Made by a program: the position numbers and the translations under genes. The notes beneath the pieces were generated by a model. It was not told where the DNA came from. It saw only the letters and a program-made list of their open reading frames with translations, and ran no database searches. Shown in pieces: positions 59,683 to 64,000 of a DNA stretch of 64,000 nucleotides (position 1 is the stretch's first letter; each line of letters opens with the position of its first letter). Origin of the DNA: Ruminococcus flavefaciens. Its GTDB lineage: Bacteria > Bacteroidota > Bacteroidia > Bacteroidales > P3. The DNA lies in contig JAMPAI010000004.1 of NCBI GenBank assembly GCA_023667315.1, positions 124,001 to 188,000 on the forward strand. The letters are read 5' to 3'.

Positions 59683-59991
59683 TTAAATTGTTTCCACTAT
59701 GAGGTTGAAACTTGTATCTAACCGGATGATTATATTTTTCCCTTGGGCGACTTTTTGAAATTCAACACTCTCATCGAGAACCTTTTTCAGATCTCTCGCA
59801 ACAGCAGAGCCTGTTTTTTTAGGAATAATACCATCTGATATATTTAAGCGAAAAGAGTATCCTGATTTCTGTCTGTTTCCTACTTCTTTGAAACGTGAAG
59901 AATCTAAAGAAACCGTCCCTTGCTCCTTCCTGATTATCTCCAAAAGATCATTCAAGTGATTGTTCCAAATGTTGATATACAGCCCGTTCAT
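59683..59991 (-). CDS. short AT-rich protein of unknown function
   Basis: This 102-residue soluble protein has no recognised motif. It consists of a helical start (MNGLYINIWNNHLNDLL), a central basic segment (GNRQKSGYSFRLN) and a final beta-rich piece ending in LIVETI. Its codon use and AT content are unlike the alcohol dehydrogenase next door and resemble the defence genes to the right. It may be the left edge of the transferred region, or a small regulator of it. It reads away from brxP. Confidence 0.5.
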   Translation of the reverse strand: MNGLYINIWNNHLNDLLEIIRKEQGTVSLDSSRFKEVGNRQKSGYSFRLNISDGIIPKKTGSAVARDLKKVLDESVEFQKVAQGKNIIIRLDTSFNLIVETI

Positions 59992-60325: not shown

Positions 60326-62830
60326 ATGTTCAAGATTTCATGGGATAATAAGACCGGAGGTGTGGCGTTATCAAACAAGATTATGCCAGATTCACTAGGC
60401 GTTTCCCCGCGTCCTGTATTCTTTGAGGAGTTGGATTTATTGGGATTGAATAAGAAAGGGTATAAGTATCCACATTGTCAAGAACCCCTTATGTGGGCTT
60501 GTAATAAGCAATATTTCTACAGGGGCGAACTGATGTTTGAGGCTAAGGGTGCCAATGTGTATGATTCCGCTCAAATAGTGTTTCAAGAAGGGAAGCAAAA
60601 GGCATCATTAAAACCTGTGGACGTGAAAAGTATGCTGGCTCGTTGCAGGGATGAGATGTTCTTGTTAGAAACAGAAGCAATAGAGTTTATTCGCGATATC
60701 TATCTGCAATATGTTGATGCAGCTAAAAAGGTAGCGGCTATTAAGTCCAATCAGTTAGATTTTGAAGTATTGGCGCAAAAGGTTGCGAAAGTAGCCAAAA
60801 AGAAAATGGCCATTGTGAAGCAAGACTGTGATAGTTTTGATATTATGCCATTGGAAACGGCGAAAGAACAGGGAAAGCGTACCTATGCTACGACGAAAAT
60901 CGATGTTTTTCTTGCTTCATTTTCAGGCGGCAAGGATAGCCAAGTGGTGCTTGACCTTTGCACGCGCGCGATTCCTCCACAGGCTTTTGAAGTGATCTAT
61001 AGTGATACCGGCTATGAACTTCCTTCTTCGTTGGAACTATATGAAGAAGTAAGAAAGCATTACCAAAAGCTTTATCCGGAACTTTCGTTCCGCATAGCAA
61101 GAAACCATGAGAATGTGCTGAATTATTGGGATAAGATTGGAACTCCTAGCGATACACATCGTTGGTGCTGTTCCGTGATGAAGACGGCTCCACTCTATAG
61201 AATGTTAAAGGTTAATGGTGGCAATAAACAGGCGAGAGTTTTGGCTTTTGAAGGGACAAGGGGCGAGGAAAGTAGTCGTCGCTTTGGTTATGAACGAATA
61301 GGAAAAGGCGTAAAACATTCGAATGTCATAAACGCTAGACCTATCCACTATTGGAATACAACAGAGGTCTTTCTCTATTTGCTTAAATACAATATCCCTT
61401 TCAATCAGGTTTATCGAATAGGAAAGCCAAGAGTTGGATGTCTGATTTGCCCATTTTCGTCTGAGTGGGATGATATGATTGTTAATACGATTTATCCTAA
61501 ACAACTTAATCCCTTCTTAAAAAGAATTGAGGATTGGGCTAAATCTCGCGACATTCCAAACATGGAGGAGTATATCAAAAATCATAAGTGGAAGATTCGG
61601 GCAAGCGGTAAAAACATGGATATAGTCAAAAGTGTTTCTTTTGTTCAAGATAAGATGCAGCTAAAGGGTAAATCCTCCAATGCTTCTTACCCCATCGAAA
61701 CATGGTTTCCCGTACTTGGTGCTTGTGTGATAGATAAAAAGAGTAAAAAAACATACAAAGGTGAATTAAACATCAAAAACAATATATATCCGTTTGAAAT
61801 AGAGGAAAAGGACAAGAATCTTTGCGAATTTACCATTAATGGCATCGCAGATCCGATCTTAATAGGACTGTTGAAAAGAACTATTTATAAGTCGGTCTAT
61901 TGCATACAATGCGAAGCCTGTGAAGTGGAATGCCCTACAGGGGCTTTAAGTGTCTATCCTAGGATAGACATCGATTCCGCAAAGTGTATTCATTGCCACA
62001 AGTGCCTTGATTTTCACACACGGGGATGTATCGTTGCAGACTCATTAAGCATGTCAGAAAATTCTAATCTCAAATTGGCCAACATTAGTGGCTATGGCAC
62101 ATTCGGCCTCCGTGACGAATGGCTGTCAGAGTTATTTTCAACCAAAGAGGAGTTTTGGGGGAACAATTCCTTGGGGAAAAAGCAAATACCTTCATTTAAA
62201 GCATGGTTGAGAGACGCTGGAATAATAGATCCAAAAGGAAATTTTACAAAATTGGGAAATTTCCTGGCCAGTGTGTACATAGATGTTCCTGTCTTGGTCT
62301 ATGAAATAATTTGGATTAACCTTGCCTATGATTCAACATTGCTAAAGTGGTTCATTGAAAATGTTGAAAACGGTGCAACTTATTCAAAACAAACACTTCA
62401 AGCTGTCTATGAATCTCAATATCATGAGGGGTTTACTACGTTTGAATATGCACTGGGCGCCTTATTTAATTTCTTCGCCACAACACCAATCGGAATAGAA
62501 TTTAATCAGCAAGTTGAAAGCGGGAAAAACGAATATAAAAGAGAGGCCTATCAAGACCTATCACGGATAGCCGTAGCCTATTCGTTGTACAAATACGGAG
62601 AAGAAAATGGAATTAAGACTTTTAGAGTGAATGATCTTTATCGGCCTGAATGCAAGGGGGGTGTATATCGAGAATTTGGTATTGGCAAATCGCAGTTGGA
62701 AAAGCAATTGCGCTCGTTGAATTCAGAGAGCAATCCAGTTCTCACGGCTGAATTAAATATGGGATTAGACCATATTTCATTGCGCGATGACTTGAACGCA
62801 GAAAAAGCGTTGGAAATATTGTTAAATTAG
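60326..62830 (+). CDS. brxP: BrxP-like PAPS-reductase/ferredoxin/DUF4007 fusion (type 4 BREX)
   Basis: This 834-residue cytoplasmic protein has three parts. Residues about 170-440 form a PAPS-reductase-type ATP pyrophosphatase domain with PP-loop SGGKDS at 200-205 and cysteines at 281, 282, 372 and 375 that could hold a cluster. Around 515-570 is a ferredoxin-like region with CIQCEACEVEC (526, 529, 532, 536) followed by a second, oddly spaced set CIHCHKC plus C568. From about 590 to the end is a DUF4007-like helical region. Type 4 BREX systems use a PAPS-reductase gene (brxP) in place of the usual methylase, and the next gene fits BrxC. A sulfur-based DNA or nucleotide modification is plausible but unproven. 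Closely related domains occur in DndC. Confidence 0.7.
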   Translation: MFKISWDNKTGGVALSNKIMPDSLGVSPRPVFFEELDLLGLNKKGYKYPHCQEPLMWACNKQYFYRGELMFEAKGANVYDSAQIVFQEGKQKASLKPVDVKSMLARCRDEMFLLETEAIEFIRDIYLQYVDAAKKVAAIKSNQLDFEVLAQKVAKVAKKKMAIVKQDCDSFDIMPLETAKEQGKRTYATTKIDVFLASFSGGKDSQVVLDLCTRAIPPQAFEVIYSDTGYELPSSLELYEEVRKHYQKLYPELSFRIARNHENVLNYWDKIGTPSDTHRWCCSVMKTAPLYRMLKVNGGNKQARVLAFEGTRGEESSRRFGYERIGKGVKHSNVINARPIHYWNTTEVFLYLLKYNIPFNQVYRIGKPRVGCLICPFSSEWDDMIVNTIYPKQLNPFLKRIEDWAKSRDIPNMEEYIKNHKWKIRASGKNMDIVKSVSFVQDKMQLKGKSSNASYPIETWFPVLGACVIDKKSKKTYKGELNIKNNIYPFEIEEKDKNLCEFTINGIADPILIGLLKRTIYKSVYCIQCEACEVECPTGALSVYPRIDIDSAKCIHCHKCLDFHTRGCIVADSLSMSENSNLKLANISGYGTFGLRDEWLSELFSTKEEFWGNNSLGKKQIPSFKAWLRDAGIIDPKGNFTKLGNFLASVYIDVPVLVYEIIWINLAYDSTLLKWFIENVENGATYSKQTLQAVYESQYHEGFTTFEYALGALFNFFATTPIGIEFNQQVESGKNEYKREAYQDLSRIAVAYSLYKYGEENGIKTFRVNDLYRPECKGGVYREFGIGKSQLEKQLRSLNSESNPVLTAELNMGLDHISLRDDLNAEKALEILLN

Positions 62831-62849
62831 CTAAGAATACTTGACAACC

Positions 62850-64000
62850 ATGGCTGAAAAATATTCAGATATAATTACTATTCGTGGTGGTAAAATCGCC
62901 TACAATATACAAGACGAGGAGCAAGAGGCCTGGAAGGATTTTATTGCCAACGATCAGTTTAATGGCATCCTAAAGACTGTCATCAAGTCAGTCAGTGCAA
63001 AAAATATAGATGACCATAAATCTTTCTGGATTGAGGGTACATATGGTACGGGAAAAAGCCATGCCGGAGCCGTTATAAAACACCTTCTCTGCGATGAGAT
63101 TGCCCAAATCAAGGATTATGTGGAGGAAGAATATAAGGATGAGCGATTTAAGGAATTAAAGAGTCAGATTTGGGGATTGCGAGAAAAGGATAAGAAACGC
63201 CTATTCCCTGTGATGCTTTATGGACAAGCCAATATTGCACGAAAAGAAGACCTCTCCCTGCAATTGCAGCGAGCAATTAGTGATGCATTGCGAAAAGCGG
63301 GAATACATATTACGGTCAAAACAGACTTTGAAAATCTCTGTGACCATATCGACGCTCAACCGGAAATGTGGAATCTTTTGATAATGAAAAGTCCGCAATT
63401 GAAGTCGGTGGCTCCAACCGTGGAGAAATTAAAAAGCAAACTTCTGCAGAATGAGTTGGGAACCTATGGTAAAGTAATGGATGCGCAACGAAATGCCGGA
63501 ATTGATGTGCGCATGGAAAGTTCACGCCTGAAGGATTGGTTCTTCGAGGTACAAGACGAATTGGCCAGATCCAAGGATAAATACGGCTATGATGGCTTGC
63601 TGGTTATCTGGGACGAGTTCACTGAAGTTATGACTTCGGAATTGGGCGCCAGCCTTTTGGTTAGCCTTCAAGAGATAGATGAAAATGTGATGAATTTGAA
63701 AAACAATTCTTATTTCTTATATATCTCTCATCCTTCAGCCCTGAACACTCTCTCTGCAGAAGAAAGAGACAAAACAAAGGGGCGTTACCACTATATGCGT
63801 TACCAAATGGAGTCCATTTCGGCTTTTAAGATTATGAGCCGGAAATTTAAATTAGTGAATGGTGCTTCGGAAGAAGATCAGTTAAATTTGGCCAGTCAAT
63901 TTTATAAGAAAAGTTCCAATTTGTTAGACATATATTCGTCGGCATCAGCGAATCCTGAGGAAACCAAACAGGATTTGAAAAAACTTTTTCCATTGCACCC
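62850..64000 (+). CDS. brxC: BrxC-like P-loop ATPase, truncated by window end
   Basis: The reading frame begins at the ATG 62850, 19 bases after the previous stop, and is open for 383 residues to the window edge. It has a Walker A motif GTYGTGKS at residues 63-70 and a Walker B-like LLVIWDEF with D255-E256. The layout and sequence style (KSFWIEGTYGTGKSH) match the large BrxC/PglY ATPases of BREX defence, which are over 1000 residues. It is AT-rich like brxP, and the short gap suggests one operon. The rest of the gene, and probably pglZ and brxL, lie outside the window. Confidence 0.72.
   Translation, partial: MAEKYSDIITIRGGKIAYNIQDEEQEAWKDFIANDQFNGILKTVIKSVSAKNIDDHKSFWIEGTYGTGKSHAGAVIKHLLCDEIAQIKDYVEEEYKDERFKELKSQIWGLREKDKKRLFPVMLYGQANIARKEDLSLQLQRAISDALRKAGIHITVKTDFENLCDHIDAQPEMWNLLIMKSPQLKSVAPTVEKLKSKLLQNELGTYGKVMDAQRNAGIDVRMESSRLKDWFFEVQDELARSKDKYGYDGLLVIWDEFTEVMTSELGASLLVSLQEIDENVMNLKNNSYFLYISHPSALNTLSAEERDKTKGRYHYMRYQMESISAFKIMSRKFKLVNGASEEDQLNLASQFYKKSSNLLDIYSSASANPEETKQDLKKLFPLH

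Follow-up and report, generated by a model that had tools for sequence, protein, structure and literature searches.

Gene content and motifs of the brxPCZL operon

The DNA analysed here (the window) is a stretch of 64,000 nucleotides, positions 124,001 to 188,000 of contig JAMPAI010000004.1 (G000:C44:124001-188000; the contig spans 209,817 bp), whose right end carries the start of a type 4 bacteriophage exclusion (BREX) operon. By listing the open reading frames (ORFs) of the window and of the contig continuation, we found four genes in the order brxP-brxC-pglZ-brxL, all on one strand, from window position 60326 to C44:194222 (Table 1). An earlier reading of the window from its sequence alone had proposed the type 4 pattern with half of the locus outside the window. 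Extending the contig to the right indeed brought the remainder into view in the expected order, with pglZ and brxL directly downstream. Two starts are available for brxC, a TTG at 62841 and an ATG at 62850, and its stop lies at C44:190374 (L002:8375; 1177 amino acids (aa)); the 19-base gap reported earlier between the PAPS-reductase gene and the BrxC-like ATPase gene is exact when counted from the end of brxP to the ATG. The tight spacing of the genes suggests that brxPCZL form a single transcript.

BrxP matched its PADLOC model (PDLC02510) over residues 1–832 with 903 bits (E = 5e-272), and the PAPS_reduct domain of Pfam (PF01507) accounted for residues 197–376 (E = 3.6e-30). The ferredoxin models of Pfam (Fer4) matched weakly; a BrxP profile run against solved structures recovered both PAPS reductases and ferredoxins, the ferredoxin chains aligning at residues 521–578. 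The C-terminal region, matched by a short PADLOC BrxP model, corresponds, we infer, to the DUF4007 part, the DUF4007 fusion being taken from a passage of PMC12839542. For BrxC, the PADLOC model PDLC02490 gave an E value of 0 (1200 bits), and Pfam returned a single match, DUF6079, below its cut-off. PglZ scored 702 bits with PADLOC and 677 bits with NCBIfam NF033445 (BREX_PglZ_4; cut-off 140). BrxL reached 704 bits with PADLOC and 437 bits with NCBIfam TIGR02688 (cut-off 329), contained both BrxL domains of Pfam and matched the solved BrxL structures 8emc (E = 1.4e-44) and 8emh (E = 3.7e-44). At 477 aa, it lacks the C-terminal Lon-protease extension, as in type 4, for which a passage of PMC12839542 describes the short form. 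In agreement with the earlier description of type 4 loci as lacking PglX, the four core ORFs adjoin one another and gave no methylase match, and no PglX was found among them with PADLOC, Pfam or NCBIfam, a search that did not extend to the rest of the genome. The gene content, comprising BrxP, a BrxC/PglY ATPase, a type-4 PglZ and a short BrxL with no PglX in the operon, is that of BREX type 4, and the operon itself is a standard, further complete BREX type 4 locus. The sequence-only reading had also called self-marking in type 4 unclear, a statement now superseded: passages of PMC12839542 and PMC11931770 describe brxPCZL as a phosphorothioation system, in which phosphorothioate (PT) modification takes the place of the methylase.

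According to part of PMC12839542, the Dnd and Ssp phosphorothioation systems and BREX type 4 have homologous parts in common, and the genes might thus represent a Dnd or Ssp system instead. BrxP also matched SspD (49 bits, the best of the Dnd/Ssp models in PADLOC) and DndC (32 bits); for BrxC, SspC reached 62 bits. However, the BREX models scored far higher for both proteins, the operon includes brxL as well as a pglZ that greatly exceeds the cut-off of its BREX-4 model, and no match to DndB was found in the genome. We rejected the Dnd/Ssp classification on these scores (49 and 62 bits versus 903 and 1200) and give it next to no credence. The earlier call of the gene at 62850 as BrxC-like has therefore stood, with BrxC as the best PADLOC model and SspC at 61.6 bits at best.

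In alignments of 52 BrxP, 46 BrxC, 42 PglZ and 45 BrxL sequences, which contain the window copy but no shorter fragments, the recognisable catalytic motifs of all four window proteins matched the consensus of at least 97%. Besides the BrxP and BrxC motifs in Table 1, the window copy keeps the conserved PglZ residues D526, T562, D584, H588, S624-D625-H626, H647 and H693, as well as the BrxL Walker A (229–232) and Walker B (D276-E277). Departures from near-invariant columns were limited to two Trp-to-Tyr sites in BrxP, one Glu-to-Asp in BrxC and one Pro-to-Ser in PglZ, the latter two proteins each having three inserted residues in addition; BrxL had none. Gene content, gene order, family membership and intact motifs were thus all observed here.

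We further examined 56 related loci, selected by peptide patterns from the window BrxP, so that the frequencies given below hold for the relatives of this BrxP and not for all BREX type 4 loci. All four genes were present in 43 of the 56, in the same order in 43/43 and in another order in none; the remaining 13 are cut by contig ends, two of them (L032 and L033) only after a different gene behind brxP. Across the order, a BrxP match with E 1e-60 or better was found in 6 of 393 genomes, one of them partial. In four of the five genomes other than the window's own, the brxP-brxC junction was visible. Within the genus, full-length BrxP occurred in the window's own genome only (1/13), the other BrxP matches being confined to either the reductase or the ferredoxin section of the profile.

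Genomic site of the operon

The operon has a GC content of 0.397, compared with 0.557 for window positions 1-59642. In G004, a genome of the same genus, the left flank is shared from mnmE through a dehydrogenase gene at 90% DNA identity, and the right flank is shared as well (vsr, 85%; a macro-domain gene, 83%; further out, a 4.5-kb stretch, 95%). Between these flanks, brxPCZL is replaced in G004 by an alternative set (L080:2402-9126, versus window 60052 onward) that, by Pfam, encodes GmrSD_N, HEPN (RiboL-PSP), two ICEA proteins, a C-5 cytosine methylase and an N6/N4 methylase, followed by vsr. Because G004 has these different restriction/modification genes between the same flanks, the site is a defence hotspot exchanging whole defence sets, as the two congeneric genomes show by having one set in place of the other within shared flanks. 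The GC difference, together with the different gene set of G004, argues for horizontal acquisition of the operon.

Downstream of brxL, PADLOC and Pfam identified vsr, AbiH, macro-domain and T5orf172/PDC-S57 genes. Their position directly behind brxL, with vsr 160 bp away on the other strand, and the presence of Vsr and AbiH in the PADLOC defence library could suggest that they are extra subunits of the window BREX. Yet AbiH, the macro-domain gene and T5orf172 were found in 0 of the 56 loci and vsr in one (L017) (tblastn, 1e-5; flanks of up to 10 kb, often shorter), and vsr and the macro-domain gene stand at the same site of G004 without BREX, there beside methylase genes. We therefore rejected the four genes as BREX subunits, an improbable role, because they are not conserved with the operon and, for vsr and the macro-domain gene, because both also stand at the BREX-less site of G004. 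The AbiH, macro-domain and T5orf172/PDC-S57 genes are a general defence neighbourhood. The vsr of the window strain has no adjacent 5-methylcytosine methylase (PF00145 methylases are found elsewhere in the genome) and probably remains from the set that G004 still has. On the left side, the 102-aa ORF was considered as a BREX regulator or operon part and rejected, as G004, which lacks BREX, has a homologue at the corresponding place.

Table 1. Features of the operon and its immediate neighbours (window positions unless prefixed by C44 or L002; conservation refers to the alignments described in the text)
Feature	Position	Strand	Description
102-aa ORF, left neighbour	59683..59991	-	77% DNA identity to G004; no family match (PADLOC, Pfam, NCBIfam)
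brxP	60326..62830	+	834 aa; PAPS-reductase, ferredoxin-type Fe-S and DUF4007/SspB-like C-terminal regions; PADLOC BrxP, Pfam PF01507
BrxP PP-loop SGGKDS	60923..60940	+	Residues 200-205, PAPS-reductase domain; at least 97% conserved in 52 BrxP
BrxP WCC	61163..61171	+	Residues 280-282, reductase domain Cys pair 1; at least 97% conserved in 52 BrxP
BrxP GCxxC	61436..61450	+	Residues 371-375, reductase domain Cys pair 2; at least 97% conserved in 52 BrxP
BrxP eight-Cys ferredoxin-type region	61901..62029	+	C526, C529, C532, C536, C554, C557, C560, C568; each at least 97% conserved; Pfam Fer4
BrxP C-terminal region	62090..62638	+	Residues 589-771; short PADLOC BrxP model PDLC02511, E 9.2e-17
brxC	62841..64000 in window	+	First 386 of 1177 codons from TTG start; PADLOC BrxC (full ORF)
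BrxC Walker A	63036..63059	+	Residues 66-73; G66, T67, G69, G71, K72, S73 at least 97% conserved in 46 BrxC
BrxC Walker B D258-E259	63612..63617	+	At least 97% conserved in 46 BrxC
pglZ	C44:190358-192778	+	806 aa; overlaps brxC 3′ end
brxL	C44:192789-194222	+	477 aa
vsr	L002:12384-12980	-	Opposite strand; ends 160 bp from brxL

A sulfur-binding-domain gene in related loci

In 23 of 51 scored junctions, a stand-alone sulfur-binding-domain (SBD) gene was present between brxP and brxC (for example L013:12514-12963); it was absent in the other 28. One of the 51, L100 from G118, had been found via its SBD, and without it the count is 22/50; L021 has an SBD match on a contig that ends before brxC and is therefore in the BrxP tree and outside the 51. 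Among the four order-wide junctions mentioned above, G118 was the only one with the SBD gap. The small protein of ∼145 aa was identified as an SBD by a fold test. Pfam did not recognise it, and weak matches of two members to Ribosomal_L19e (best E 0.00096) were taken as chance. K29 and P79 are invariant in 20/20 SBD proteins, and most rows have Ala at the H116-type position; the equivalence to the ScoMcrA cavity residues (H116, R117 or Lys, P165) was read from the 8h0l alignment and the motif context, not from a ScoMcrA alignment. SprMcrA likewise has no His at the H116-type position (Y31/Q32). L024 and L027 have their SBD gene broken across two frames, and L024 also shows a further SBD match on the opposite strand upstream.

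In the BrxP tree (52 rows, midpoint root; L032 and L033 unscored), 23 of the 36 rows in the window's branch have the SBD gene, compared with 0 of the 14 rows scored in the sister branch. The window falls into a well-supported subclade of six rows (100/99) that has no SBD gene and is nested among SBD-bearing lineages. The tree requires 8 changes of the SBD label, at least 6 of them on well-supported branches. With the midpoint root, the simplest reading is that the gene was gained in one branch and then repeatedly lost.

Several loci contain further genes. A 177-aa gene and, behind it, a DndB gene, always paired, follow brxL in seven loci, all of them SBD-positive (L010 (10713-12522), L011, L013, L014, L025, L030 and L048). 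Among loci that extend 700 bp or more beyond brxL, the pair occurs in 7 of 20 with the SBD gene and 0 of 23 without it (Fisher p 0.0024, uncorrected for relatedness). One member of each family was scanned: the DndB matched PF14072 (E 2.8e-35), and the 177-aa protein had no Pfam match and nothing significant in a PDB profile search (best E 0.88). From inspection of its motifs, we consider the 177-aa family GIY-YIG-like.

It is somewhat more likely than not that a large Bacteroidales BREX-4 branch has an undescribed fifth component, a stand-alone SBD protein that would read the PT mark of its own operon and link this recognition with BrxC/PglZ/BrxL, joined in some loci by the downstream GIY-YIG-like and DndB proteins, and that the window operon lost it. 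Among the papers searched, BREX, SBD and phosphorothio- occur together in PMC9646914 alone, in passages about SspE, and neither 'SBD' nor 'sulfur-binding' occurs in the main text of PMC12839542. Passages of the latter mention wHTH-SRA-HNH fusions near BREX loci, and part of an earlier paper that it cites, PMC10853773, treats the SBD as wHTH.

Such a reader raises the question of whether the window BREX-4 needs one encoded elsewhere, or whether its loss left a modifier without working restriction. The SBD gene is indeed found in relatives near the window's clade, and the SBD profile had no match in the window's own genome; this empty search was run without its own positive control, though the SBD of G118 was picked up with that profile. 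Against this, the gene is missing from 28/51 loci, including 14/14 scored loci of the sister clade, so that an SBD reader is optional, and the window's pglZ and brxL have kept their core residues. We regard both versions as unlikely. The value of the locus lies in this comparison: since the SBD gene is present in some operons and absent from close relatives, a single small gene can be put in or taken out to test directly how BREX-4 discriminates marked from unmarked DNA. If the SBD protein is such a component, paired reader-plus and reader-minus systems exist for asking whether BREX-4 requires direct PT reading.

Other genes accompany these loci or resemble the SBD gene. A protein of ∼258 aa is encoded immediately upstream of brxP in L008 (9222-9998), L031, L032, L034, L047 and L059 (no Pfam match in the one member scanned), and the gene after brxL in L043, L046 and L052 clusters with this family, apparently via a C-terminal domain common to L059. 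The position of the SBD gene is taken by a Schlafen/AlbA_2-type gene in L031 (12503-13900; Pfam) and L008 (12512-13908), apparently split in L008. Orphan stand-alone SBD genes occur outside BREX (L101:2740-3186 and L102:7487-7933), each with a gene for an uncharacterised ∼390-aa protein behind it.

Proposed mechanism and comparison with known systems

Yuan et al. (Nat Commun 2026;17:1717) reportedly found PT synthesis by BREX type 4 (brxPCZL). We are confident that the type 4 BREX operon of the window strain is complete and probably functional, that it was acquired horizontally into a chromosomal defence hotspot and that it most likely PT-marks host DNA and attacks unmarked phage DNA; literature on relatives is the source for PT synthesis, for phage as the target and for the roles given to the proteins. 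Some observations weigh against this view. In L032 and L033, the ORF behind brxP is unrelated, and the contig ends ∼1.1 kb later without any brxC in between. PglZ had no Pfam match at 1e-3, and a single-sequence search at E 0.1 returned no solved relative of BrxC or PglZ. Furthermore, the equivalence of PglZ T562 and H693 to T538 and H741 of the Escherichia fergusonii type I PglZ is presumed and does not come from an alignment. On the supporting side, that type I PglZ is a nuclease that cuts DNA in vitro, dependent on T538 and with a contribution from H741 (in part of PMC12205998).

By analogy with its relatives, the operon probably marks the host's own DNA with sulfur. The window operon itself encodes no cysteine desulfurase, SBD or DndB, and a housekeeping cysteine desulfurase would supply BrxP with sulfur; cysteine-desulfurase-like genes on contigs C63 and C11 score below the curated NifS cut-off and above the Aminotran_5 cut-off, and a cysteine desulfurase is given for 56% of taxa in passages of PMC12839542 and PMC11931770. 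BrxP, the BrxC ATPase and the DUF4007-like DNA-binding region of BrxP would then replace a non-bridging oxygen by sulfur at a short motif of the host chromosome. Unmarked incoming phage DNA would be attacked by PglZ, whose type I BREX counterpart is a metal-dependent nuclease, and by the ring-shaped AAA+ DNA motor BrxL. The assignment of BrxP-BrxC as putative PT writer and of PglZ-BrxL as putative restricting arm follows from the homologies in these two papers, one of which (PMC12839542, in part) relates BrxC, BrxP and DUF4007 to SspC, SspD and SspB, and from the desulfurase genes elsewhere in the genome. As the window subclade lacks the stand-alone SBD gene, any sensing of the mark would be left to the four core proteins. 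Restriction by cleavage is uncertain, because a passage of PMC11931770 presents BREX-4 as antiviral without restriction-endonuclease activity while the type I PglZ cuts DNA in vitro.

Compared with BREX type 4 as modelled in PADLOC and NCBIfam, the window operon has the same four genes in the same order with intact catalytic motifs, and its core is identical in kind. The SBD protein of its relatives differs from the sulfur-binding domains of Hga, ScoMcrA and SprMcrA (PDB 8h0l, 5zmo and 7ccj) in that it stands alone in a putatively PT-writing BREX operon, with no fusion to an HNH nuclease. With SspABCD-SspE and SspFGH systems, the window operon shares a BrxP related to SspD and a BrxC related to SspC; in contrast to them, it has PglZ and BrxL rather than SspE or SspFGH, and its counterpart of SspB is apparently fused to BrxP.

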